A stretch of DNA of 64,000 bases from Thioalbus denitrificans (GTDB taxonomy: Bacteria; Pseudomonadota; Gammaproteobacteria; DSM-26407): positions 426,650 to 490,649 of the forward strand of contig NZ_QPJY01000001.1 of assembly GCF_003337735.1 (NCBI RefSeq). Reading direction: 5' to 3'. Positions 741 through 14,678 of this stretch are shown here, one piece after another; positions within the stretch are counted from its first letter, which is position 1; each line of letters begins with the position of its first letter. The notes below the pieces were generated by a model, which worked only from the letters and a program-made list of their open reading frames with translations, was not told the origin of the DNA and searched no databases. Both the position numbers and the translations under genes were made by a program.

Positions 741-2159
741 ATGGCGAAAACCTACAGCGCGGGCGTCAAGGAATACCGCGAAACGTACTGGATGCCCGAG
801 TACACCCCCAAGGACACCGACATTCTGGCGTGCTTCAAGATTACCCCCCAGGCCGGGGTGCCCCGTGAAGAGGCGGCCGCGGCCGTGGCGGCGGAATCCT
901 CCACCGGCACCTGGACCACCGTGTGGACCGACCTCCTCACCGATCTCGACTACTACAAGGGCCGCGCCTACGCCATCGAGGATGTGCCGGGCAACGACGA
1001 GGCCTTCTATGCCTTCATCGCCTACCCCATCGATCTCTTCGAAGAGGGTTCGGTGGTGAACGTGTTCACCTCCCTGGTGGGCAACGTGTTCGGCTTCAAG
1101 GCCGTGCGCGCCCTGCGCCTGGAGGACGTGCGCTTCCCCATCGCCTACGTGATGACCTGCAACGGTCCGCCCCACGGCATCCAGGTGGAGCGCGACATCA
1201 TGAACAAGTACGGCCGTCCGCTGCTGGGCTGCACCATCAAGCCCAAGCTGGGCCTGTCGGCCAAGAACTACGGCCGCGCCGTCTACGAGTGCCTGCGCGG
1301 CGGTCTCGATTTCACCAAGGACGACGAGAACGTCAACTCCCAGCCGTTCATGCGCTGGCGCCAGCGGTTCGACTTCGTCATGGACGCCATCCACAAGGCG
1401 GAGCAGGAGACCGGCGAGCGCAAGGGCCACTACCTGAACGTGACCGCGCCCACCCCGGAGGAGATGTACAAGCGTGCGGAGTACGCCAAGGAGATCGGCG
1501 CGCCCATCATCATGCACGACTACATCACCGGCGGCTTCTGCGCCAACACGGGCCTGGCCCAGTGGTGCCGGGACAACGGCCTGCTGCTCCACATCCACCG
1601 CGCCATGCACGCGGTGCTGGACCGCAACCCCAACCACGGCATCCACTTCCGCGTGCTGACCAAGATCCTGCGCCTGTCCGGCGGTGATCACCTGCATACC
1701 GGCACCGTGGTGGGCAAGCTCGAGGGCGACCGCGAGTCCACCCTGGGCTGGATCGACCTGCTGCGCGACTCCTACATCAAGGAAGACCGCAGCCGCGGCA
1801 TCTTCTTCGACCAGGACTGGGGCTCCATGCCCGGCGCCTTCGCCGTGGCCTCCGGCGGCATCCACGTCTGGCACATGCCGGCGCTGGTGACCATCTTCGG
1901 TGACGACGCCGTGCTGCAGTTCGGTGGCGGCACCCTGGGCCACCCGTGGGGCAACGCGGCCGGCGCCGCGGCCAACCGCGTGGCGCTCGAGGCCTGCGTC
2001 GAGGCCCGCAACCAGGGCCGCGAGCTGGAGAAGGAGGGCAAGGAGATTCTGACCGCCGCCGCCGCCAGCAGCCCCGAGCTGAAGGCCGCGATGGAGACCT
2101 GGAAGGAGATCAAGTTCGAGTTCGACACCGTCGACAAGCTCGACGTGTCCCACAAGTAA
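741..2159 (+). CDS. cbbL: RuBisCO form I large subunit
   Basis: Large subunit of form I (IA-like) ribulose bisphosphate carboxylase; eight copies with eight small subunits fix CO2 in the Calvin cycle. The 472 residues match the family length. The active-site lysine carbamylated by CO2 is Lys193 in [13 protein letters not shown]; the other catalytic segments are [11 protein letters not shown] (about 163-173) and HIHRAMH. The start follows GGAGGA with good spacing. A 101-base hairpin-containing gap precedes cbbS, and cbbQ and cbbO follow, the arrangement of form IAq operons. A second, form II RuBisCO lies 10 kb downstream. Confidence 0.98.
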
Positions 2160-2173
2160 GCATGTGAGTGGAG

Positions 2174-2220
2174 GGTGAGGTGTGAAGGGTGAGGAGTCCC
2201 CTCACTCCGAGCACCTCACC
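2174..2220 (+). repeat. Nested inverted repeat between cbbL and cbbS
   Basis: GGTGAGGTG (2174-2182) pairs with CACCTCACC (2212-2220), and inside it GTGAGG (2189-2194) pairs with CCTCAC (2200-2205). A hairpin here could protect the 3' end of cbbL mRNA. The phrase GGTGAGGAGT recurs in the cbbS-cbbQ gap, so it is also a small repeat family. Confidence 0.6.
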
Positions 2221-2260
2221 GGCGCAGCCGCGAATTCGAACGATTACGAGGATTAAAGCA

Positions 2261-2617
2261 ATGAGCGAAATGCAGGACTACAAGTCGAGCCTGGGTGACA
2301 CCAGCAGCCGCAAGTTCGAGACCTTCTCCTACCTGCCCGAGATGGATGCCGAGCGCATCCGCAAGCAGGTGGAGTACATCATCTCCAAGGGCTGGAACCC
2401 GGCCATCGAGCACACCGAGCCCCAGAACGCCTTCAGCCACTACTGGTACATGTGGAAGCTGCCCATGTTCGGCGAAACCGACGTGGACCGGATCCTGGCC
2501 GAGGCGGAGGCCTGCCACAAGGCCCACCCCAACAACCACGTGCGCCTGGTGGGCTTCGACAACTACGCCCAGTCCAAGGGCGCCGAGATGGTGGTCTTCC
2601 GCGGCAAGGCCGTCTGA
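2261..2617 (+). CDS. cbbS: RuBisCO form I small subunit
   Basis: Small subunit (118 residues) of the form I RuBisCO encoded by the gene before it. The typical segments are present: [19 protein letters not shown] near residue 22 and the [13 protein letters not shown] core, ending with the [11 protein letters not shown] strand. The start at 2261 was chosen over an upstream in-frame ATG because it gives the normal N-terminus and follows AGGATT. A strong terminator lies 26 bases after the stop, so the two subunits can be made in excess of CbbQ and CbbO. Confidence 0.97.
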
Positions 2618-2642
2618 TCGCCACCGCGGCACGCTGAACCGG

Positions 2643-2679
2643 AGCCCCTGTTCCGTCGTGACGGGGCAGGGGCTTTTTT
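2643..2679 (+). terminator. Rho-independent terminator after cbbS
   Basis: AGCCCCTG (2643-2650) pairs with CAGGGGCT (2667-2674), with an inner CCGTC/GACGG stem, followed by a T-run to 2679. It separates cbbLS from cbbQ, so partial readthrough would set the level of the activase genes. Confidence 0.85.
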
Positions 2680-2691
2680 GTGAACGTGAAG

Positions 2692-2765
2692 GGTGAGGAG
2701 TGAGGCGTGAGGAGTTCTCACGCCCGCCGCGAATGCGCCTCACGCCCGACGCCTGACTCCTCACC
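2692..2765. repeat. Inverted repeat upstream of cbbQ
   Basis: A 17-base arm (2692-2708, starting GGTGAGGAGT) pairs with 2749-2765 with one mismatch. Inside, GCGTGAG phrases repeat in both orientations. The right arm ends three bases before the cbbQ ribosome site, so folding could affect translation. It is related to the repeat between cbbL and cbbS. Confidence 0.6.
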
Positions 2766-2778
2766 GGAGTGAATGAGC

Positions 2779-3588
2779 ATGAGCGACCAAATCGACCGCG
2801 AGCAGTACCTGATTCAGGAAGAGCCCTACTACCGCCCGGTGGCGAACGAGGTGGCCATGTACGAGGCGGCCTACGACGCGCGCATGCCGGTGATGCTCAA
2901 GGGCCCCACCGGCTGCGGCAAGTCCCGCTTCGTGGAGTACATGGCCTGGAAGCTGGGCAAGCCGCTCATCACCGTGGCCTGCAACGAGGACATGACCGCC
3001 TCGGACCTCGTGGGGCGGTTCCTGCTCGACATCAACGGCACCAAGTGGCAGGACGGCCCGCTGACGGTGGCCGCCCGCATGGGCGCCATCTGCTACCTGG
3101 ACGAGGTGGTGGAGGCGCGCCAGGACACCACCGTGGTGATCCACCCGCTCACCGACCACCGGCGCAACCTGCCGCTGGAGAAGAAGGGCGAGCTGGTGCA
3201 GGCCCATCCGGATTTCCAGATCGTCATCTCCTACAACCCCGGCTACCAGAGCCTGATGAAGGATCTCAAGCAGTCCACCAAGCAGCGCTTCGGCGCGCTG
3301 GACTTCGACTATCCGAGCGCGGAGATCGAGACCGAGATCGTCGCCCACGAGGGTCACGTGGACAAGGCGGTGGCCGAGAAGCTGGTGCAGGTGGCCCAGC
3401 GCTCCCGCAACCTCAAGGGCCACGGCCTGGACGAGGGCATGTCCACCCGCCTGCTGGTCTACGCCGCCCAGCTCATCGGCAAGGGCATCGATCCCGAATC
3501 CGCCTGCCGCATGGCCCTGGTGCGCCCGCTCACCGACGATCCCGACATGCGCGACACGCTGGACGCGGCAGTGGGGACGTATTTTTAG
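2779..3588 (+). CDS. cbbQ: RuBisCO activase AAA+ subunit CbbQ
   Basis: AAA+ ATPase that, with CbbO, removes inhibitory sugar phosphates from form I RuBisCO. It is a MoxR-family protein of 269 residues. Walker A is GPTGCGKS (42-49); Walker B is ICYLDE (about 104-109); the sensor region contains [11 protein letters not shown]. An ATG six bases upstream is in frame, but the GGAG at 2766-2769 is only three bases from it and nine from 2779, so 2779 is preferred. It is downstream of a terminator and separated from cbbO by an unrelated small gene. Confidence 0.95.
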
Positions 3589-3652
3589 TCGCCGGTGGCC
3601 GGTGGCCGGTGGCCGGTGGCCGGTGGCCGGTGGCCGGTCGCCGGTGGCGGGT
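3589..3652. repeat. Tandem GCCGGTG heptamers
   Basis: The 7-base unit GCCGGTG is repeated about seven times directly after the cbbQ stop. Similar heptamers lie at 6509-6577 and as shorter fragments at 4031-4064, 6424-6461, 7040-7065, 48451-48475 and 60174-60256. Confidence 0.85.
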
Positions 3653-3689
3653 CACAGGATAACGCAGGCAGCACAGGGAGGTGCTGGTC

Positions 3690-4049
3690 ATGCAGGATTA
3701 CAGAAGGTTGCTGGTCTGGCAGCGGTCGCACTGTCTCGCCCTGTTGGTCTACGAGACAACGCGGGAATTTCCGCAAGACGAACGCTTCGGGTTGTGCAGT
3801 CAACTGCGTCGGGCGGCAGCTTCGATTCCAGCCAATATTGCCGAGGGGAGCGGGCGGGGCAGCAGAGATGACTTCGCTCGCTTCCTGAGAATATGCGGTG
3901 GTTCGGTTCACGAGCTGGAATACCAGGCCATGTTGGCCCGGGATCTGAACTACCTGGCTGGCGAACGGTTCGAGCAGCTGGGGGCTCGTTGCGCGGAGAT
4001 TCGGCGCATGCTCACGGGGCTGCTCAAAAAGCTGGTTGCTGGAAACTGA
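3690..4049 (+). CDS. Four-helix-bundle protein (S23/IVP family)
   Basis: Small alpha-helical protein of 119 residues of the four-helix-bundle family first found encoded in 23S rRNA intervening sequences; its cellular role is unknown. Family features are LLVWQRSHCLALLVY near the start and the signature IPANIAEGSGRGSRDDFARFL in the middle. The ATG at 3690 follows GGGAGG with 8-base spacing and is preferred to a GTG at 3681. The gene sits between cbbQ and cbbO, where no such gene is expected, and is flanked on both sides by intergenic heptamer repeats, suggesting it was inserted. No reverse transcriptase, rRNA or diversity-generating template is nearby. Confidence 0.88.
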   Translation: MQDYRRLLVWQRSHCLALLVYETTREFPQDERFGLCSQLRRAAASIPANIAEGSGRGSRDDFARFLRICGGSVHELEYQAMLARDLNYLAGERFEQLGARCAEIRRMLTGLLKKLVAGN

Positions 4050-4065
4050 AGGCTGGTAACTGAAT

Positions 4066-6423
4066 ATGACCATCGACTTCGCCGAGTACGTCAATTGCCT
4101 CGAGCTCGAGGCGGGCCACGAGCACCGCGAGGCCCTGGAGTCCTCCTATCACGAGGCGGCCCGGGTGATGTCTCCGCGCGGACTGCAGAACTATCTCGAG
4201 GGCATGCGCGCGCTGTGCGTGCTGGGCCGCGGACGCGACCTGGTGCTCACCTATGTGGGGGAGATGCCCGGCGTGGCCAAGGAGGTGGGCGAGGACGTCA
4301 TCCCGGACGTGGTGGAGGCGCTGATGAAGCTCGCCTCGCACACCTCCGGCACGGTGCTGACCCTGATGATGGCCAGCCTGCCGCTGGCGGCCCAGCGCCT
4401 GGGCGACGCGGAGGTGCTGCGCGGGTATCTCGGCCTGATCCACCAGCTGGCCGGCAAGGCGCCGCGGGGCCTGCGGCCGATGCTGGAGAACCTGGACGAG
4501 CTGCTCGCCAAGCTCACCCTCGGGGGGCTGCGGCGCTGGGCCCTGTGGGGCGCCCAGGCCCACGCCCGGGATCTCGACGGGCAGATGGCCTACTACGGAC
4601 TGAAGAGCGAGTCCTCCCGGGCGGTGCTGCGCAAGGAGCGGCGCGGCACCCTGTTCGTGGACAACCAGCGCAAGCTCAACTTCTACCTGCGGGCACTGTG
4701 GGGGCGGGCCTTCTTCATGCGCCCCACCTCCGGCGACTACGAGACCCGCCAGGGGCTGAGGCCCTTCATCGAGGAGTTCCAGATCCACGTCCCCGACGCC
4801 TACGACACCTTCCACGGCATCGACGGCATCGAGATCTACCGCGCCGCGGTGGCCCACTGCGCGGCGCACCTGGTCTACACCCGCCGGCCCATCTCGGCCG
4901 AGCAGCTCTCCCCGGCGCAGATGAAGTTCATCGAGCTGTTCGAGGACGCGCGGGTGGAGTACCTGGCGGGCCGGGAGTTCCCCGGCCTGCGCAAGCTGTG
5001 GCTCTCCTTCCTGACCGCCAAGCCGCGGCCGGAGGAGGAGGCGCCGGAGATCCATCCGGTGATGGAGCTCATGCTGCGCATGGCCCGCGCGCTGCTGGAC
5101 GAGCACTACGAGGACGAGGAGTCGGCCATCAACGCCATGGCGGCCGATTTCCGCGCCCGGCTGGCCGTCGACCCCTACGACAGCGCCATCAGCTGGAATG
5201 CCGGCGTGGAGTTCTACAATCACCTGTCCGCCTACGGCGCCATCCCCGGCCTGCGGGTGCTGGAGAGCTGGCCCATTCCCTACCGCGACGACAACCGCTA
5301 CATCTGGGCCTTCGCCGAGGCCGACTTCGGGCGCGGAGTGGACTACCAGCCCGCCTCCCAGCAGGTGCGCAAGTACGTCAGCGTGCTGGAGATGGTCAAC
5401 GAGCTGGACTGTGAGCTGGCCGGCGACGATGCCCAGGAGATCTGGGTGCTGGACACGCCCTTCTACCTCGACCAGGAGGGCTGCACCATCAACGAGCTGG
5501 AGGGCAAGGAGCCCATCTCCGAGCCCTACCACTACCAGGAGTGGGACTACCACGTGCAGCTCTACCGGCCCGACTGGGCCACGGTCATCGAGCGCCGCCA
5601 GCCCAAGGACGACCCGGAGGTGATGGACGCCATCCTCACCAAGCACAAGCCCATCGCCTCGCGCATCCGCCACCTCATCGACGCCCTGCAGCCCCAGGGC
5701 ATCGTGCGCAAGCGCGGTTTCGAGGAGGGCGAGGAGATCGACATCAATGCGGCGGTGCGCGCCTTCATCGACATCCGCCGGGGCGTCATGCCCGATCCGC
5801 GCATCAACATCCGCATCACCCGCCACGTGCGCGACCTGGCGGTGGTGATCCTGCTGGATCTCTCCGAATCCACCAACGAGCCGGTGGAGAAGGACAATCC
5901 GGACAGTCCCACGGTGGTGGAGCTGACCCGCGAGGCCACCGGGCTGCTGGCCTGGGCCATCGACTCCATCGGCGATCCCTTCGCCGTGCACGGCTTCGCC
6001 TCCGACGGGCGCCACGACGTGCAGTACTACCGCTTCAAGGACTTCCACCAGCCCTACGACGACGAGGCCAAGTCGCGGCTGGCGGGGATGCAGGGCGGGC
6101 TCTCCACCCGGATGGGCGCGGCGCTGCGCCATGCCGGCTGGCACCTGGGCCAGCAGTCGGCGCAGAAGCGGCTGGTGCTGCTGGTCACCGACGGCGAGCC
6201 GGCCGACATCGACGAGCGCGATCCCCAGTACCTGCGCCACGACACCAAGAAGGCGGTGGAGGATCTGGCCATGCAGGGGATCTACACCTACTGCCTCACC
6301 CTCGATCCCCTGGCCGACCGCTACGTGGCCCGCATCTTCGGCGAGAACCGCTACGCCATCGTCGACCACGTGGAGCGGCTGCCGGAGCGGCTGCCGGCGG
6401 TGTTCGCCACGATCACGGGGTGA
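4066..6423 (+). CDS. cbbO: RuBisCO activase VWA subunit CbbO
   Basis: Partner of CbbQ; it docks the AAA+ ring onto RuBisCO. The protein has 785 residues, the normal length. The C-terminal part is a von Willebrand A domain whose metal-binding DLSES motif (residues near 600) binds RuBisCO through Mg2+, followed by a conserved LLVTDGEPADIDE segment. The N-terminal two thirds is the helical CbbO-specific region. It starts 16 bases after the inserted four-helix-bundle gene. The opposite strand is also open over almost the whole length, which is a GC-codon shadow. Confidence 0.95.
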   Translation: MTIDFAEYVNCLELEAGHEHREALESSYHEAARVMSPRGLQNYLEGMRALCVLGRGRDLVLTYVGEMPGVAKEVGEDVIPDVVEALMKLASHTSGTVLTLMMASLPLAAQRLGDAEVLRGYLGLIHQLAGKAPRGLRPMLENLDELLAKLTLGGLRRWALWGAQAHARDLDGQMAYYGLKSESSRAVLRKERRGTLFVDNQRKLNFYLRALWGRAFFMRPTSGDYETRQGLRPFIEEFQIHVPDAYDTFHGIDGIEIYRAAVAHCAAHLVYTRRPISAEQLSPAQMKFIELFEDARVEYLAGREFPGLRKLWLSFLTAKPRPEEEAPEIHPVMELMLRMARALLDEHYEDEESAINAMAADFRARLAVDPYDSAISWNAGVEFYNHLSAYGAIPGLRVLESWPIPYRDDNRYIWAFAEADFGRGVDYQPASQQVRKYVSVLEMVNELDCELAGDDAQEIWVLDTPFYLDQEGCTINELEGKEPISEPYHYQEWDYHVQLYRPDWATVIERRQPKDDPEVMDAILTKHKPIASRIRHLIDALQPQGIVRKRGFEEGEEIDINAAVRAFIDIRRGVMPDPRINIRITRHVRDLAVVILLDLSESTNEPVEKDNPDSPTVVELTREATGLLAWAIDSIGDPFAVHGFASDGRHDVQYYRFKDFHQPYDDEAKSRLAGMQGGLSTRMGAALRHAGWHLGQQSAQKRLVLLVTDGEPADIDERDPQYLRHDTKKAVEDLAMQGIYTYCLTLDPLADRYVARIFGENRYAIVDHVERLPERLPAVFATITG

Positions 6424-7065: not shown

Positions 7066-7368
7066 TCAATCCTCGTCGTCCAGCTCCGGATTCCAGCCCT
7101 GCTCGCGGGCGCCCTGCACGGCGGCGGCGTAGATGCGGGCATGGCGTTCACGCAGGTCGTCGGGGAGGTTGGAGGCCAGCTGGCCGTAGGGTTCCCAGGC
7201 CTTGCTGACCTGGTCGTAGAGCTGCTCGATGCGGCCGTAGCTCCAGCCCGCGCAGGTCTCGGTCTCGGGGATCAGGCCGAACACCCAGGCGTCGCGGATG
7301 ATCTTGCCCACGGTCGTCAGACCGTTGTTCTTGTCCTTGTGGATGCCAACGTAGTTCTGGGTCTTCAT
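7066..7368 (-). CDS. Small protein of unknown function
   Basis: A 100-residue soluble protein, start preceded by GAGAAG. It contains IRDAWVFGLIPETETC followed by GWSYGRIEQLYDQVSKAW, mostly helical, with an acidic C-terminus (ELDDED). I do not recognise a domain. It converges with the gene after cbbO across 27 bases of repeat-like sequence. A 90-base inverted-repeat element begins 34 bases upstream of its start and may carry or replace its promoter. Confidence 0.72.
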   Translation of the reverse strand: MKTQNYVGIHKDKNNGLTTVGKIIRDAWVFGLIPETETCAGWSYGRIEQLYDQVSKAWEPYGQLASNLPDDLRERHARIYAAAVQGAREQGWNPELDDED

Positions 7369-7401
7369 GGTCTTCTCGGTATGCGGTGCGGGTCAGCCTG
7401 C

Positions 7402-7491
7402 TAGTGTACTGCGTCACTCTTGGAGGTGCTTTCGGGGGGCTCCCTGCGGGCGAGCCGCTGAATGTGCCTCCAAGGGTGACGCAGAACACTA
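7402..7491. repeat. MITE-like inverted-repeat element (short copy)
   Basis: The ends TAGTGTACTGCGTCAC... (7402-7429) and ...GTGACGCAGAACACTA (to 7491) are inverted copies with a few mismatches. The centre (7438-7460) shares 22 of 23 bases with the complement of 45415-45437 inside a larger element. A single end also occurs at 37588-37605. Confidence 0.8.
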
Positions 7492-7543
7492 ACATATCCG
7501 AGTCGGCGCCGGGCGGCACCTCCGGGCCGCCCGGAGACCGGGT

Positions 7544-7906
7544 TCAGATGAGGTTGCCGATGCTCTCGGCGGCCCGCTTCACGTCCAGGAAGATCAGGCC
7601 GAGCCGGGCGTCGGGCTTGGCCATCACCGTCACCACCGCCTCGGCGCCGGCGTGGGTCATCAGCACGTAGCCCTTCTCGCCCTTGATGAGCACCTGCTCG
7701 AGGCCGCCGCGGGCCAGCTCCTGGGCGGTGCGTCCGCCCAGCGAGAGCATGGCTGCGCTCATGGCGCCCACGCGGTCCTCGTCGAGGCCGGCCGGCATCT
7801 GGGCGGCCATCATCAGGCCGTCGGTGGAGATCACCGCCGAGGCCTCGATGTCGGCGGAACTGCCGTTGAGGTCGCTCAGGATGGAATTCAGCATGTCTGC
7901 ACGCAT
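7544..7906 (-). CDS. Roadblock/LC7 domain protein
   Basis: A 120-residue single-domain roadblock/LC7 protein, the fold used by GTPase partners such as MglB and actinobacterial CvnB. The pattern is typical: VISTDGLMMAAQMP near residue 26, a central helix (MSAAMLSLGGRTAQELARGG), then the strand-rich VLIKGEKGYVLMTHAG and a hydrophobic C-terminal helix. It is the last gene of a six-gene minus-strand run that also encodes a small GTPase, its likely partner. The ATG follows GGGAGAACGACC. Confidence 0.88.
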   Translation of the reverse strand: MRADMLNSILSDLNGSSADIEASAVISTDGLMMAAQMPAGLDEDRVGAMSAAMLSLGGRTAQELARGGLEQVLIKGEKGYVLMTHAGAEAVVTVMAKPDARLGLIFLDVKRAAESIGNLI

Positions 7907-7940
7907 GGTCGTTCTCCCGGGGTATCGTTGTTGTCCCCGC

Positions 7941-8504
7941 TCAGGCCCGGTAGGCGCCGGCGAGGTTGTTGAACAGGGTCCGGCTCATGCCGGTGATGGC
8001 GAGGAAGCGGTCCAGCTCCTCGGCGAGGCTGGAGGACTGGTAGGACTCCTGCATGATCATCAGGCAGAAGCCGAGCACGGCGCTCACCGCGGCGTTGGTC
8101 CGGATGCAGCGCTCGTGATCCTCGCCGCACACCCGGGCCACCGTGGTCAGCAGGCTGTTGCCCACCAGCGTCATGGAGGCGGCCATGAACTCCACCGGCA
8201 TCTGCACCTTCACGTGCACGTCGCCCACGTGATACATGCGGGCGGCGTACCCGGCATCGAACGGGCCGGTGAAGACGCTTTCCAGCCAGCCCAGGTGGGT
8301 GGCCTTGAGGGCGTCGATGCGTCCCTCGATGAAGGCCGCCGCCTTGGGTACCCGGGCCAGGTCGGCATAAAAGGCCTCGGTGACCTCCGGCAGCAGGGGG
8401 CGGATGGCGGGTCCGATCTGGACCAGCAGGGCCTCCCGTTCCGGGGTGAGGCCGGTGAACGCGCGGGCATAGCGGGTCAGTTCCTCGAAATCGATGTCAG
8501 CCAT
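7941..8504 (-). CDS. Protoglobin-type haem protein
   Basis: A 187-residue protein that is a single globin domain of the protoglobin/globin-coupled-sensor type, with no fused output domain. The segment GDVHVKVQMPVEF supplies the expected proximal haem histidine (His97), preceded by HLGWLESVFTGPFD. Such domains bind O2, NO or CO. Here it is encoded within the GTPase/roadblock module, 34 bases before the roadblock gene, so it may sense gas or redox state for that module. The SD is GGAGCTGC, about six bases before the ATG. Confidence 0.87.
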   Translation of the reverse strand: MADIDFEELTRYARAFTGLTPEREALLVQIGPAIRPLLPEVTEAFYADLARVPKAAAFIEGRIDALKATHLGWLESVFTGPFDAGYAARMYHVGDVHVKVQMPVEFMAASMTLVGNSLLTTVARVCGEDHERCIRTNAAVSAVLGFCLMIMQESYQSSSLAEELDRFLAITGMSRTLFNNLAGAYRA

Positions 8505-8541
8505 TGGGGGTGCAGCTCCTGTCGGATGGGTGGGGGGTGAT

Positions 8542-9183
8542 TCAGGCCGCGGTGGCGCCGTAGCGGCGCCACAGGGCCCAGACCAGCCGGGTCAGCGCGG
8601 GCTGGTTGAGCCGCGGCTGGCCGGCAAGGGCCAGCACGAAGCGGTGCCCGCCGGCGTGGATGGGCCAGAAGCCGAACTGGCTGTTGCCGGCGGCGTCCAG
8701 TACGCCCCAGGCGCCGCCGGGAAGGCCGAGATTGCCTCCCAGGAGACCGTGATGGCGCGCATGGAGCGAGGCCAGGTCTGCGCTCAGGGCGGATATCTCC
8801 TCCGCCGCCTCGTGGGGGAATCCGACACTGGCGAGGTAGAAGCCCTGGGCATCCGCCAGCAGGGCGCGTCCGGCGGCCGAGAGCGGCGCCAGCAGTTCGG
8901 GCAGCAACTGCTCCAGGGGGCCGCCCGGCGCGCGGCGCGGCGTGGCCAGCCCTTCCAGCCAGCCGAGGGTCTGCAGGTGGTGGAGCAGATCGAGGGCGGT
9001 GCCGTTGTCGTGCACCCCGCACCAGCGCCGCAGGCCCTCCAGCTCCAGCGGCGGGGTCTCGTCCCGGCGCAGCAGGGCGGTGAGCAGAGTGCGGGGGCGG
9101 CTGGCGTCCGGCGCGGCGGCGGCGTGGTAGGCGCCCGCGGGAGAGACGGCCAGGTAGTGGCCGGCGATCAGGCGGTAGCTCAT
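8542..9183 (-). CDS. Unknown protein with winged-helix-like and roadblock-like parts
   Basis: A 213-residue protein. The first half contains a helix-turn-helix-like stretch (LRRWCGVHDNGTALDLLHHL, residues about 51-70). The second half (LLADAQGFYLASVGFPHEAAEE... to a closing FVLALAGQPRLNQPALTRLV) resembles a divergent roadblock/LC7 fold. It starts three bases after the GTPase gene stop, so the two are probably translationally coupled. I infer a second GTPase partner; no named family was recognised. Confidence 0.72.
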   Translation of the reverse strand: MSYRLIAGHYLAVSPAGAYHAAAAPDASRPRTLLTALLRRDETPPLELEGLRRWCGVHDNGTALDLLHHLQTLGWLEGLATPRRAPGGPLEQLLPELLAPLSAAGRALLADAQGFYLASVGFPHEAAEEISALSADLASLHARHHGLLGGNLGLPGGAWGVLDAAGNSQFGFWPIHAGGHRFVLALAGQPRLNQPALTRLVWALWRRYGATAA

Positions 9184-9186
9184 CGG

Positions 9187-9720
9187 CTACGCTCCCAGGC
9201 CTGGATCGAGGCTGTAGAGCAGGGCCTTGACCAGCAGGCGCACGTCGTCCCGCTCGCGGGCGTCCACCTCGAACACCGCCGGGTTCAGGTCGCGCCCCGC
9301 CAGTTCGTGGTGATAGGCGTCCAGGCCCGGTCCGCCCAGGTCGGTGCGGGTGACGCCGATGACCACGCCCTGCTCAGCGATGAAGCCGCGGAATGCATCG
9401 AGGAAGAAGTGCAGATCGCGGAAGGGATCGGCGCGGCTGTTGTCGATGAGCAGCACCAGGCCGAGCCCGCCCGCGGTGAGGATCTCCCACATGAAGTCGA
9501 ACCGCTCCTGGCCGGGGGTGCCATAGAGATGGATGCGCTCCCCGCCCTCCAGCTGCAGCACGCCGTAGTCCATGGCCACCGTGGTGCCGGCTTTGCGGCT
9601 GCGGGTCATGTCCGAGGCTGCCTCGTCGGTCGATACCGGCGGCGTATCGCTGATGGCCGTGATGGCCGTGGTCTTCCCGGCGCCGACGGGGCCGGTGAAG
9701 ATGATCTTGTAGTCGCTCAT
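9187..9720 (-). CDS. Small Ras-like GTPase of the CvnD type
   Basis: A 177-residue GTPase. G1 is GPVGAGKTT (10-18). G3 reads YGTPGQERFDFMW, the GTPGQER form without the usual Asp that is characteristic of conservon CvnD proteins. G4 is VTRTD rather than NKxD. Family knowledge: such GTPases work with roadblock proteins encoded beside them, and one is present here in the same operon. There is no lipid-anchor cysteine at the C-terminus. The start is preceded by an AT-poor 53-base gap after the 390-residue gene. Confidence 0.88.
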   Translation of the reverse strand: MSDYKIIFTGPVGAGKTTAITAISDTPPVSTDEAASDMTRSRKAGTTVAMDYGVLQLEGGERIHLYGTPGQERFDFMWEILTAGGLGLVLLIDNSRADPFRDLHFFLDAFRGFIAEQGVVIGVTRTDLGGPGLDAYHHELAGRDLNPAVFEVDARERDDVRLLVKALLYSLDPGLGA

Positions 9721-9773
9721 CGGGTCGTGTGGAGATCAGTGTCGGTGAAGGGGGGCGTGCGTCCCGCTGCTGC

Positions 9774-10946
9774 TCACGCGCCGCGCAGCCGGCCGAGAAT
9801 GCGGCCCAGAAGGCCGCGGGCCAACGACCGGCCGGATGGCCGGGCGGGCTGCGACGCCGGGACGTTCCCGGGCTCGAACTCCATCAACCCCACCGCCAGG
9901 GCGGCGCTGTAGAAGGCGAACACGGCTGGCCGGGGCAGCTGCAGGGCGGCGGCGGCCTCCAGCGGAGTGCAGCGGCGGCGCACCCACAGCGCCGCCAGCT
10001 GCAGGGCATGGGGTGTCAGCACCAGGCGGGTGAGATTGGGCCAGTGTCGCAGGCGCACGGGGGTCTCCCAGGCCGTGTCGCCCGGAAGCCGGCCGCGGGA
10101 GCTCCACAGGGCCACTTTCCACAGGAAAGTCTCCTGCCGTTCCGGCGTCCCTGCCGAGGCGCCGCGCAAGGCCTCGGCCTCCTCCGCCGCAAGCTCGCTG
10201 AGCAGCACCTGTCCGTAGCCGTCGACCGGAATCACGGTCATGGAGCGCAGGCGCGCCTCGTCCAGGTCGGCGATCACCTCCCCGGTGTCGGGGAAGATCA
10301 GGATGTCGCGCCAGGGGCCGCGCAGGCGCTGCGCCTTGCCGCTGGCCGCCGCCCGTGCGCAGGCCTGCTGCAGGTGGCCCTGCAGGTGGCGTCGCGGGTC
10401 GTAGGTGGAGTGGCCGCGTTGCCGGGCATCGCCGGGATCGGCATCGGGAACGCTGCGGATGAAGTGACGGAACGAGGCCGCCTCCAGGGTGCGGGCGGCC
10501 TTGGCCGTGCGCGCGCCCCGGGCGGCCTGGCGGAAGCTGCGGGACTTGCCGCGGCTGCCGTCCGGGGGCGCGGTGGTGGCCGCGGACGGTGCCGTCAGGG
10601 CGGAGGCGCTGGTGTCGCGCAGCCGGGGCTCGAGCCGATCCAGCAGCTCCAGGAAGGCCTGGCTGCCGATGGGCTTGGACAGGAACCAGGGCGGTGCCGG
10701 CTCGGGCCTGCGCAGCGCCACGGCCACCAGCGGGCGGTCCGGGTTCCGCGGGTCGGTGAGACGCCAGCGCCCGGCCCCCTCGGGGCTGTCGATGTCCACC
10801 AGCACCAGCTCCGCCTGCTCTTCCGGCACGAGCTGGCAGCGCCCGCCGCAGGGACCCTGGAAGAAAAGCTGCAGGGTCTGCGCCAGGCGCGGGGCGAAGC
10901 CGTATGCGGCCACCTTGAGCGGGGTGCGCGCCGGTGCCGGCTTCAT
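9774..10946 (-). CDS. Unknown protein in the GTPase module
   Basis: A 390-residue protein, not recognised as a whole. Residues 10-105 look like a degenerate response-regulator receiver fold (ELVLVDIDSPEG ... LVAVAL ... WFLSKPIGSQAFLELL), but conservation is weak and phosphorylation is doubtful. A basic low-complexity linker follows (about 115-160). The C-terminal region has a winged-helix-like stretch (RCTPLEAAAALQLPRPAVFAF), recalling the DUF742 helix-turn-helix protein of conservons. It overlaps the upstream gene by four bases. Confidence 0.68.
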   Translation of the reverse strand: MKPAPARTPLKVAAYGFAPRLAQTLQLFFQGPCGGRCQLVPEEQAELVLVDIDSPEGAGRWRLTDPRNPDRPLVAVALRRPEPAPPWFLSKPIGSQAFLELLDRLEPRLRDTSASALTAPSAATTAPPDGSRGKSRSFRQAARGARTAKAARTLEAASFRHFIRSVPDADPGDARQRGHSTYDPRRHLQGHLQQACARAAASGKAQRLRGPWRDILIFPDTGEVIADLDEARLRSMTVIPVDGYGQVLLSELAAEEAEALRGASAGTPERQETFLWKVALWSSRGRLPGDTAWETPVRLRHWPNLTRLVLTPHALQLAALWVRRRCTPLEAAAALQLPRPAVFAFYSAALAVGLMEFEPGNVPASQPARPSGRSLARGLLGRILGRLRGA

Positions 10947-11668
10947 GTCTCTGCACCGGCCAGTTCATCGGCCAGCAGGAGCCACTCGCGCGGGAGCGGC
11001 CGGCCGCTCCCCAGCAGGCGATCGCAGGTATCGTTGAAGCGTTCGGCGTCCCTGGTGCGGCGGTAGATCTCCAGCAGCAGCGGGAGGACGTCGGTGCGCC
11101 GGGGCTCCCCGGCCAGGGCGGACTCCAGGACCCGGGTCGCCGCCTCCAGCTGCCCGTCGCGGAGCAGGTTGTCGGCCTGTTCGAGGGCATCGCCACCCCG
11201 TTCGTCACCGGCGCCGATGCGTTCCACCAGCCGGCAGTCGCCCACCAGGCCATGGGAAAGAACCGACCCGGTGCAGTGAGCCTGGGGGCTGCGCGCCTCG
11301 ATCGGCCGCTCCAGCGCTTCCGCCAGCCGCCCGCGGGCAGCCCGGGGAATGCGGGGTCCGATCAGGTCCAGCAGGCGCTTGCGCAGCGCCGTCCCGCGTT
11401 CGCCCAGAGCGATGAACAGGTCCGTCAGCGCGGCGCAGGCGCCCTCGTGGTCATCCAGGTCCAGGTGCAGGTGGATGCGCTGCACGTGGGCACGCAGGTC
11501 GGCGTGTGCCCGCGCCACCCGGTGGGCCAGGTAGGTGGCGCTGTGGGGATTGCGCAGGTGGCGCGGCAGCCGCAGGGCCCGTTCCCGGGCAACCCGGAAG
11601 GCGGGTTCGTCGCCGGGTGGGGGCGGGGGCGGCTGGCGCCGGAAAGCTGGCGGCATTGTTCTGTGCAT
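10943..11668 (-). CDS. Unknown alpha-helical protein, first gene of the GTPase module
   Basis: About 241 residues from the chosen ATG, mainly helical, with TPR-like pairs near the C-terminus (DNLLRDGQLEAATRVLESAL, then LPLLLEIYRRTRDAERFND). The frame is open up to 11797, but that codon coincides with a TTGACA promoter box, so translation must begin lower; 11668 and 11656 are both possible and neither has a good ribosome site. It overlaps the next gene by four bases and heads the six-gene run. Confidence 0.65.
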   Translation of the reverse strand: MHRTMPPAFRRQPPPPPPGDEPAFRVARERALRLPRHLRNPHSATYLAHRVARAHADLRAHVQRIHLHLDLDDHEGACAALTDLFIALGERGTALRKRLLDLIGPRIPRAARGRLAEALERPIEARSPQAHCTGSVLSHGLVGDCRLVERIGAGDERGGDALEQADNLLRDGQLEAATRVLESALAGEPRRTDVLPLLLEIYRRTRDAERFNDTCDRLLGSGRPLPREWLLLADELAGAET

Positions 11669-12463: not shown

Positions 12464-12544
12464 CCAGTTTCCATGCGGAAATACCCGGCGCCGACGGTTG
12501 GTGCGCCCGGGATGCAACCAGCTTTCACGAGGGGAGTAGAGAAT

Positions 12545-13927
12545 ATGGATCAGTCCAGTCGTTACGCGGACCTGTCGCTCAGGGAAGAGGATCTGATTGC
12601 CGGCGGACGGCATGTCCTTTGCGCCTACATCATGAAGCCGAAGGCCGGCTACGAATATCTTTCGACCGCGGCCCACTTCGCCGCCGAGAGCTCCACGGGC
12701 ACCAACGTGGAGGTGTGCACCACCGACGACTTCACCAAGGGTGTGGACGCGCTGGTCTACGAGATCGACCCGGCCCGCGAGCTGATGAAGATCGCCTACC
12801 CGGTGGAGCTGTTCGACCGCAACATCAAGGACGGCCGCGCCATGCTGGCCTCCTTCCTGACCCTGACCATCGGCAACAACCAGGGCATGGGCGACGTGGA
12901 ATACGCCAAGATGCACGACTTCTACGTGCCGCCGGCCTACCTGCGCCTGTTCGACGGTCCCTCCATGAACATCCAGGACATGTGGCGCGTGCTCGGCCGC
13001 GACATGACCAACGGCGGCATGGTGGTGGGCACCATCATCAAGCCGAAGCTGGGCCTGCGTCCGCAGCCCTTCGCCGACGCCTGCCACCAGTTCTGGCTGG
13101 GCGGCGACTTCATCAAGAACGACGAGCCCCAGGGCAACCAGGTGTTCGCGCCCCTGAAGGAGACCATGCGCCTGGTGGCCGACGCCATGCGCCGCGCCCA
13201 GGACGAGACCGGCGAGGCGAAGCTGTTCTCCGCCAACATCACCGCCGACGACCCCTTCGAGATCATCGCCCGCGGCGAGTACATTCTCGAGACCTTCGCC
13301 GAGAACGCCGATCACGTGGCGTTCCTGGTGGACGGCTACGTGGCCGGCCCCACCGCCATCACCACCGCCCGCCGCTACTTCCCGAACCAGTTCCTGCACT
13401 ATCACCGTGCGGGCCATGGCGCGGTGACCAGCCCCTCGGCCAAGCGCGGCTACACCGCCTTCGTGCACTGCAAGATGTCCCGCCTGCAGGGCGCCTCCGG
13501 CATTCACACCGGCACCATGGGCTTCGGCAAGATGGAGGGTGACGCCGCCGACAAGGCCATCGCCTACATGCTGGAGCGCGATGCCGCCGACGGCCCCTAC
13601 TTCCACCAGGAGTGGCTGGGCATGAAGGCCACCACGCCCATCATCTCAGGCGGCATGAACGCCCTGCGCCTGCCGGGCTTCTTCGACAACCTGGGCCACT
13701 CCAACGTGATCCAGACCTCCGGCGGCGGCGCCTTCGGCCACAAGGACGGCGGCACCGCGGGCGCCAAGTCCCTGCGCCAGGCCCAGGACGCCTGGCAGGC
13801 TGGCGTCAACCTGGTGGACTACGCCATGGAGCATCCGGAGCTGAAGGGCGCCTTCGAGTCCTTCCACTGGGATGCCGACAAGCTGTTCCCGGGCTGGCGC
13901 GAGAAGCTGGGCGTGGCGGCGGCCTGA
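12545..13927 (+). CDS. cbbM: RuBisCO form II
   Basis: Form II ribulose bisphosphate carboxylase, usually a dimer or hexamer of large subunits only, suited to high CO2 and low O2. The 460 residues match the family. The carbamylated lysine is Lys191 in [25 protein letters not shown] and the loop-6 region GFGKMEGD are also present. The start follows AGGGGAG with about 8-base spacing. It has its own operator and promoter and a strong hairpin downstream. No second cbbQO pair for form II lies beside it. Confidence 0.98.
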
Positions 13928-14114: not shown

Positions 14115-14678
14115 ATGCGCAAGATCCTGATTACGGCCATCCTCGGCGCCCTCTGCACGGGACCGGCGGTCGCCGACCCCGTGGCCGACAACACGGCCGA
14201 GGCGCGCGAGATCGTCAAGCAGTTCTTCGGCGACCTGAAGGGTAAGCTCCAGGCGGCCATGAAAGAGGGCGGCCCCACCAATGCCATCGGCGTATGCCGG
14301 AACGAGGCGCCCGGAATCGCCCGGTCCACGTCCGAGCAGACGGGCTGGAGCGTGGGTCGTACCAGCCTGCAGCTGCGCAACTTCCAGAACCGCGCCGACG
14401 ACTGGGAGCGCCAGGCCCTGGAGGAATTCGACCAGCGCAAGGCGGCCGGCGAGGACATCACCAAGATGGAGAAGGCGGAGGTGGTGAGCGTGAACGGCCA
14501 GGAAACCTTCCGCTACATGAAGGCCATTCCCACCGCGGCGCTGTGCCTGAACTGCCACGGCGCCGAGCTGAAGCCGGAGGTCAAGGCGAAGCTCGACGAA
14601 CTCTACCCGACGGACCAGGCCACGGGTTACCAGGAGGGCGACATCCGTGGCGCCTTCACCCTGTCCAAGACGCTGTGA
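14115..14678 (+). CDS. Periplasmic c-type haem protein, Tll0287/DUF3365-like
   Basis: A 187-residue exported protein with an N-terminal signal peptide (cleavage likely after TGPAVA, near residue 20). One haem-attachment motif, CLNCH, lies near residue 140, as expected of the Tll0287-like (DUF3365) haem fold. A further cysteine occurs in IGVCRNEAP. The start has a good GAGAGGAG site. Its role is unknown; related domains are used as redox or gas sensors and as electron carriers. It follows cbbM but the strong hairpin suggests a separate or attenuated transcript. Confidence 0.88.
   Translation: MRKILITAILGALCTGPAVADPVADNTAEAREIVKQFFGDLKGKLQAAMKEGGPTNAIGVCRNEAPGIARSTSEQTGWSVGRTSLQLRNFQNRADDWERQALEEFDQRKAAGEDITKMEKAEVVSVNGQETFRYMKAIPTAALCLNCHGAELKPEVKAKLDELYPTDQATGYQEGDIRGAFTLSKTL

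Follow-up and report, generated by a model that had tools for sequence, protein, structure and literature searches.

What does a globin do among the genes of a small GTPase? The question is raised by six minus-strand genes (7544–11668) in a 64,000-nucleotide stretch of the Thioalbus denitrificans genome, which we analysed whole and call the window. They encode, in order of transcription, a 241-residue TPR-like protein, a 390-residue protein, a 177-residue GTPase, a 213-residue protein (RB2), a 187-residue single-domain protoglobin and a 120-residue roadblock protein (RB1). All six open reading frames (ORFs) lie where a preliminary description of the locus, made from the sequence alone, had placed them, and they are as close-packed as it said: the first two genes share 4 bp, and the later gaps measure 53, 3, 37 and 34 bp in order. 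The order of the five genes other than the globin recurs in dozens of species, and the gene set is far from a chance assembly. We think it probable that a module of the Group 3 MglA type has here gained a stand-alone protoglobin as its sensory input, which passes its signal to a roadblock protein and from there to the GTPase. The gene context argues strongly for the link between globin and GTPase. What is new is the protoglobin input, together with a general pairing of protoglobins with roadblock proteins; the type of the core was already known.

The core of the operon is a Group 3 MglA module

Group 3 MglA systems were described in 2014, by Wuichet and Sogaard-Andersen, in beta- and gammaproteobacteria (PMC4316618). 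They are kinase-free, their GTPases have a G4 motif without lysine and DAR in G5, and they comprise one or two MglB proteins together with a protein of unknown function that is receiver-like at its N-terminus and winged helix-turn-helix (wHTH)-like at its C-terminus (PMC4316618). The window GTPase carries TRTD and VDAR, i.e. a G4 without lysine and DAR in G5, as in Group 3, and the operon holds two MglB-type roadblock proteins, RB1 being recognised by Pfam and RB2 by its predicted structure. The GTPase is 59% identical to its Neisseria homologue, against 33–37% to conservon GTPases, and a Neisseria gonorrhoeae record has the identical five-gene order, with several of the genes there split across frames. 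In a GTPase tree that omits reference sequences of Groups 1, 4 and 5, a branch supported at 100/99 parts the window and a beta- and gammaproteobacterial set from CvnD, the conservon GTPase, whose sequences form a separate clade (100/97). The conservons fetched for comparison show a layout of kinase, roadblock, DUF742 and GTPase; Pfam searches of the six module proteins (E up to 1) found neither a kinase domain nor DUF742.

Given these GTPase motifs, this gene set and this tree, and with neither kinase nor DUF742, we assign the core to the Group 3 MglA systems and not to the conservons. The preliminary description had called the locus conservon-like, its GTPase CvnD-type and the whole possibly undescribed. 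A GTPase and roadblock switch in a proteobacterium is indeed present, whereas the kinship with conservons does not hold, and the CvnD assignment fails because the GTPase lies outside the CvnD branch despite the GTPGQER motif. Since Group 3 systems are kinase-free and were described in 2014, the core is not undescribed and the absence of a kinase is normal. It is for the globin input and its pairing that the literature searched gave no description; the text of Wuichet and Sogaard-Andersen makes no mention of globins (PMC4316618).

Besides the window, we compared 80 loci of named genomes and 20 of relatives, 101 loci in all. In this set TPR-REC-GTPase-RB2-RB1 is a strongly conserved order, REC being the receiver-like protein (390 residues in the window). 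It is kept in Methylococcales, Chromatiaceae and others, and in Neisseria, and dozens of the loci are from methanotrophs.

Single-domain protoglobins are often paired with roadblock genes

Protoglobin matches were drawn from three samples (369 genomes of the window's class, 398 of its phylum and 151 of the order of Methylotuvimicrobium), and 89 loci were examined, 39 with single-domain globins and 50 with fused sensors. A roadblock gene adjoins 28 of the 39 single-domain protoglobins and none of the 50 fused globin-coupled sensors (Fisher exact test, 1.6e-14), a p-value that overstates independence, since the samples overlap in ancestry and the counts include related genomes. The pattern holds inside each of the three samples. 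Globin and roadblock genes are on the same strand in 26 of the 28 pairs, at gaps of −4 to 207 bp. In Methylococcales, the pair is also found as a detached two-gene cassette, globin followed by RB1, away from the main module (L253–L256 and L258 in our numbering of loci).

The single-domain globins share a C-terminal tail of about 25–30 residues, with the motif [TSAV]G[MLIFW] followed after 2–3 residues by L[LFYV]. It is present in 36 of the 39 single-domain globins, including 27 of the 28 adjacent to a roadblock gene, and in none of the 50 fused sensors; as the motif was defined after viewing the same sequences, these counts describe the set and test no prediction. The tail may be the contact with the roadblock protein. 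A match to the cyanobacterial Tlr1989 (PDB 8h17) reaches into the region of the tail.

The pairing extends beyond the Group 3 modules. Three loci of one family, labelled 'same phylum, other class' in the database, which we read as Alphaproteobacteria (L266–L268), share an operon encoding a roadblock-like protein, an ODP-family protein (PF19583, 4e-73), a roadblock protein, a protoglobin, a 211-residue protein and a GTPase. In a Thermus plasmid operon (L279:1869–3998) the products are a DUF4388 protein, a GTPase, a roadblock protein and a protoglobin, and homologous globins are found on three further Thermus plasmids. Because the GTPases of the ODP-type and Thermus operons fall outside the beta- and gammaproteobacterial group in the tree, the pairing was probably assembled more than once. 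One locus outside the window's class, L268 (4828–7537), shows an alternation of roadblock, globin, roadblock, globin and roadblock genes within the operon of the ODP-family protein.

The literature searched holds no description of a link between protoglobins and roadblock proteins, the exception being HGbRL of Methylacidiphilum, which has a different globin; searches on Tlr1989 found nothing. Adjacency of globins and GTPase regulators in many unrelated bacteria suggests that oxygen or a comparable gas is sensed in a widespread manner not described before. We tentatively extend this to the majority of single-domain protoglobins in Pseudomonadota and Thermus, which might be distinct, trans-acting gas sensors whose conserved tail docks on an MglB-type roadblock protein, so that the gas level sets a Ras-like GTPase. 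Such a route from haem to small GTPase would have been assembled several times, and the globin would be interchangeable with PAS, CZB, FIST and ODP inputs.

The globin apparently occupies an exchangeable position in the module

In the window, as in L115, L164, L165, L166, L168 and L226, the globin gene separates RB2 from RB1, and this arrangement is found in at least five bacterial families. In L170, L238 and L248, and likewise in Methylobacter and its relatives, the globin gene comes after RB1. In L174, a relic of 24 residues of the globin C-terminus persists between RB2 and RB1, and the globin copy of L096 is frameshifted. The clade of the window globin is supported at 97/98, with 11 of its 13 members inside modules, and the globin of L170 belongs to a second, distinct clade. 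The preliminary description had treated the globin as a genuine member of this neighbourhood, and its recurrence across the loci of the neighbourhood search supports this: the outcome named there as refuting the module, a globin gene not conserved in the neighbourhood, was not observed.

Other sensory proteins take a comparable place. In 71 of the 101 loci, genes for PAS and PhnD-like (PF12974) proteins occur, normally directly after RB1, whereas other proteins found at that site have CZB (L175), FIST (L031 and L188) or MCP (L187) domains. The arrangement of L028 (8849–10081), PAS and then a PhnD-like binding protein, is shared by about 70 other loci, and these are the usual Group 3 companions in methanotrophs. 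The window has neither gene at the site after RB1. Elsewhere in the genome of the organism a PhnD-like gene gave no match, an empty answer that is weak evidence, and the only PAS matches were distant domains (24–34% identity) in long reading frames. Relocation of the two genes within the genome was rejected, as no clear orthologue was found. The module thus resembles a single GTPase core whose sensory inputs can be exchanged, the globin being one of these inputs.

Predicted folds of the module proteins

The protoglobin is a single-domain protein, and RB1 a roadblock protein, as had been proposed; the Pfam matches are given in Table 1. The best solved match of the globin is 5ohe, the AfGcHK-type globin domain of a globin-coupled histidine kinase, and it can be aligned to 5ohe and to 2w31. 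The distal Tyr46 and the proximal His97 of the haem site are kept without exception in the 39 globins aligned. The chain stops about 30 residues past the globin domain and has no fused output domain.

Structure prediction had been suggested for the proteins without clear family. For RB2, whose match to Robl_LC7 is sub-threshold (0.011), an AlphaFold model from 45 sequences (mean predicted local distance difference test, pLDDT, 93.7) shows the expected roadblock domain at residues 87–209. For this domain, Foldseek ranks Myxococcus MglB first and VIA-align a Streptomyces roadblock protein (Z 11.0, root-mean-square deviation 3.0, 107 residues aligned). The 390-residue protein has no credible Pfam match, and its model (pLDDT 84.7) starts with a receiver fold, residues 9–118 matching response-regulator receivers at Z about 10. 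Across 54 sequences of this receiver-like family, D18, D51, D53, S77 and K91 are conserved and K91-P92 is invariant. The window protein retains D51 and D53 and has alanine at positions 18 and 77 in place of the relatives' aspartate and serine, and may therefore have a receiver that is not phosphorylated.

In the model of RB2, helices and strands of the first 85 residues follow one another in a wHTH-like pattern, and the C-terminus of the 390-residue protein has a compatible helix pattern (314–351) with a strand (355–357). Both wHTH domains remain putative, because the fold searches returned the other domain of each protein, i.e. the roadblock and the receiver. The TPR-like protein shows weak matches to TPR_19 (0.009) and TPR_hemY_coli (4e-5).

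A possible route from haem to GTPase

In the mechanism that we propose, the globin would bind a haem ligand, most likely oxygen (O2), and binding would shift its last helix and tail. The tail, or the dimer surface of the globin, might then act on RB1, an MglB-like regulator of the GTPase, alone or with RB2, and the altered RB1 would change the GTP cycling of the GTPase, in whichever direction. The receiver/wHTH-like and TPR proteins would read the state of the GTPase, the output probably being altered gene expression. We favour O2 because the fused globin relatives include O2 sensors and because an ODP protein, from a diiron oxygen-binding family, is a neighbour in L266–L268. The idea of a gas- or redox-responsive switch, put forward in the preliminary description, is plausible.

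The literature that we searched names no signal feeding into Group 3 MglA systems. Gene context here gives single-domain protoglobins a partner and Group 3 GTPase modules a candidate signal, and it narrows the link to two small proteins, of 187 and 120 residues, and one short tail. If the proposal is true, roadblock proteins connect Ras-like GTPases to gas levels in bacteria; by analogy only, nutrient sensing by Rag GTPases and Ragulator in animals would follow a comparable logic.

Several observations weigh against this mechanism, in addition to the overstated independence of the adjacency counts. The globin is an accessory: it is present in 7 of the 80 nearest module loci, one copy being frameshifted, and most Group 3 modules are without it. 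Two loci (L165 and L166, from genomes G101 and G317) keep TPR-REC-RB2-GLB-RB1, where GLB is the globin, with no GTPase in the module, and none was matched elsewhere in either genome. Among the single-domain globins, 11 of 39 have no nearby roadblock gene; at L262 (4924–7045) there are three single-domain protoglobins in tandem with no roadblock gene nearby. Finally, two canonical receiver residues are lost in the 390-residue protein of the window.

The wiring may also be the same while the signal differs: nitric oxide (NO), carbon monoxide (CO) or redox state could be sensed instead of O2. This is a variant of the mechanism above, its probability overlapping with that of the whole, and we regard it as rather unlikely. 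In vitro, O2, CO and NO are all ligands of protoglobins (PMC3680402), and the ligand is not fixed by sequence alone; yet the ODP protein of the alphaproteobacterial operon argues for O2, as does the solved structure nearest in sequence, a globin domain taken from a globin-coupled histidine kinase.

A role outside signalling is less likely still. The protoglobin might be a protective or catalytic haem protein, for detoxification of NO or O2 or for scavenging, merely co-transcribed with the module. Nitrite-reductase and peroxynitrite chemistry is reported for a single-domain protoglobin of Methanosarcina (PMC4020757), some relatives of the window globin stand alone, and the organism is autotrophic, with two RuBisCO large-subunit genes. 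Against this role, roadblock adjacency recurs across several globin clades and phyla, the detached cassettes consist of globin and roadblock only, and sensory domains fill the slot in other species. Descent of the module from a proteobacterial conservon by loss of the kinase is very improbable and was rejected on gene content and the GTPase tree, in spite of the shared roadblock and GTPase with GTPGQ and DAR motifs and of stand-alone sensory accessories, CvnF and CvnE, in conservons (PMC13343842).

Relation to known systems

We return to the favoured reading, a Group 3 module with a globin input. The window shares with other Group 3 systems the GTPase motifs, the MglB protein or proteins, the receiver-like protein with its putative wHTH-like C-terminus and the five-gene order seen in Neisseria; it adds a protoglobin, and it lacks the PAS and PhnD-like genes that most of the relatives examined have. 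With conservons (Group 2 MglA) it has in common the roadblock and GTPase pair and the use of stand-alone sensory accessory proteins, for which CvnF, a stand-alone GAF protein that activates the conservon kinase, is a precedent (PMC13343842). It differs from them in having no CvnA sensor kinase and no CvnC (DUF742), and in its GTPase clade and phylum.

HGbRL of Methylacidiphilum is a globin fused to a Roadblock/LC7 domain, on which ligand-driven movement has been proposed to act; its globin is of the flavohaemoglobin/VsHb-like group, and it has been called unique to the genus (PMC4476040). In both cases a globin goes together with a roadblock domain, and MglA/MglB-like genes are present in the same bacterium, whereas the window globin is a protoglobin (PF11563), encoded by a separate gene within a GTPase operon, and of a widespread kind. 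Globin-coupled sensors such as AfGcHK, HemAT and GsGCS share PF11563 and the conserved proximal histidine and distal tyrosine. Unlike these, the window globin has no fused output, a partner in trans and an extra C-terminal tail.

Gene layout and neighbouring genes

The features of the locus are collected in Table 1. The hairpin directly after RB1 has a predicted energy of −64.6 kcal/mol for 7385–7515 (z = −5.7), and the 18-bp motif of its arms occurs in these two copies and nowhere else within the window. Just downstream of the module, a minus-strand ORF of 100 residues (7066–7368) has no credible Pfam match. None of the six module proteins was matched by PADLOC, and a role in anti-phage defence was rejected on this ground.

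Table 1. Features of the protoglobin-containing GTPase module (positions in the window).
Feature	Position	Strand	Basis
TPR-like protein, 241 residues, first gene of the core module	10943–11668	minus	ORF; weak TPR matches; position matches most module loci
Receiver-like protein, 390 residues, with C-terminal HTH-like secondary structure	9774–10946	minus	Model; receiver match at residues 9–118
MglA-family small GTPase, 177 residues	9187–9720	minus	Motifs GPVGAGKT (P-loop), GTPGQER, TRTD and DAR; Pfam; tree
RB2, 213 residues, N-terminal helical domain (wHTH-like pattern) and C-terminal roadblock domain	8542–9183	minus	Sub-threshold Pfam; AlphaFold; Foldseek/VIA-align
Single-domain protoglobin, 187 residues, conserved C-terminal tail (LAEELDRFLAITGMSRTLFNNLAGAY)	7941–8504	minus	PF11563, 8e-24
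RB1, MglB-type roadblock/LC7 protein (Robl_LC7), 120 residues	7544–7906	minus	PF03259, 5e-15; in most module loci the orthologue is found downstream of RB2
Large hairpin directly after RB1, candidate transcript end	7401–7492	minus	Predicted fold

The module sits between two RuBisCO loci. On one side is a form I cluster (741–6423) with the large subunit (741–2159), the small subunit, an AAA/CbbQ-like gene (2773–3588) and a VWA/CbbO-like gene (4066–6423), and on the other a second large-subunit gene, form II-like, at 12473–13927. An O2-responsive choice between the two RuBisCO forms is a tempting idea; we did not build it into the mechanism because none of the other fetched loci has RuBisCO genes near the module. 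Beside the second RuBisCO gene, a Tll0287-like haem-domain protein is encoded at 14115–14678.

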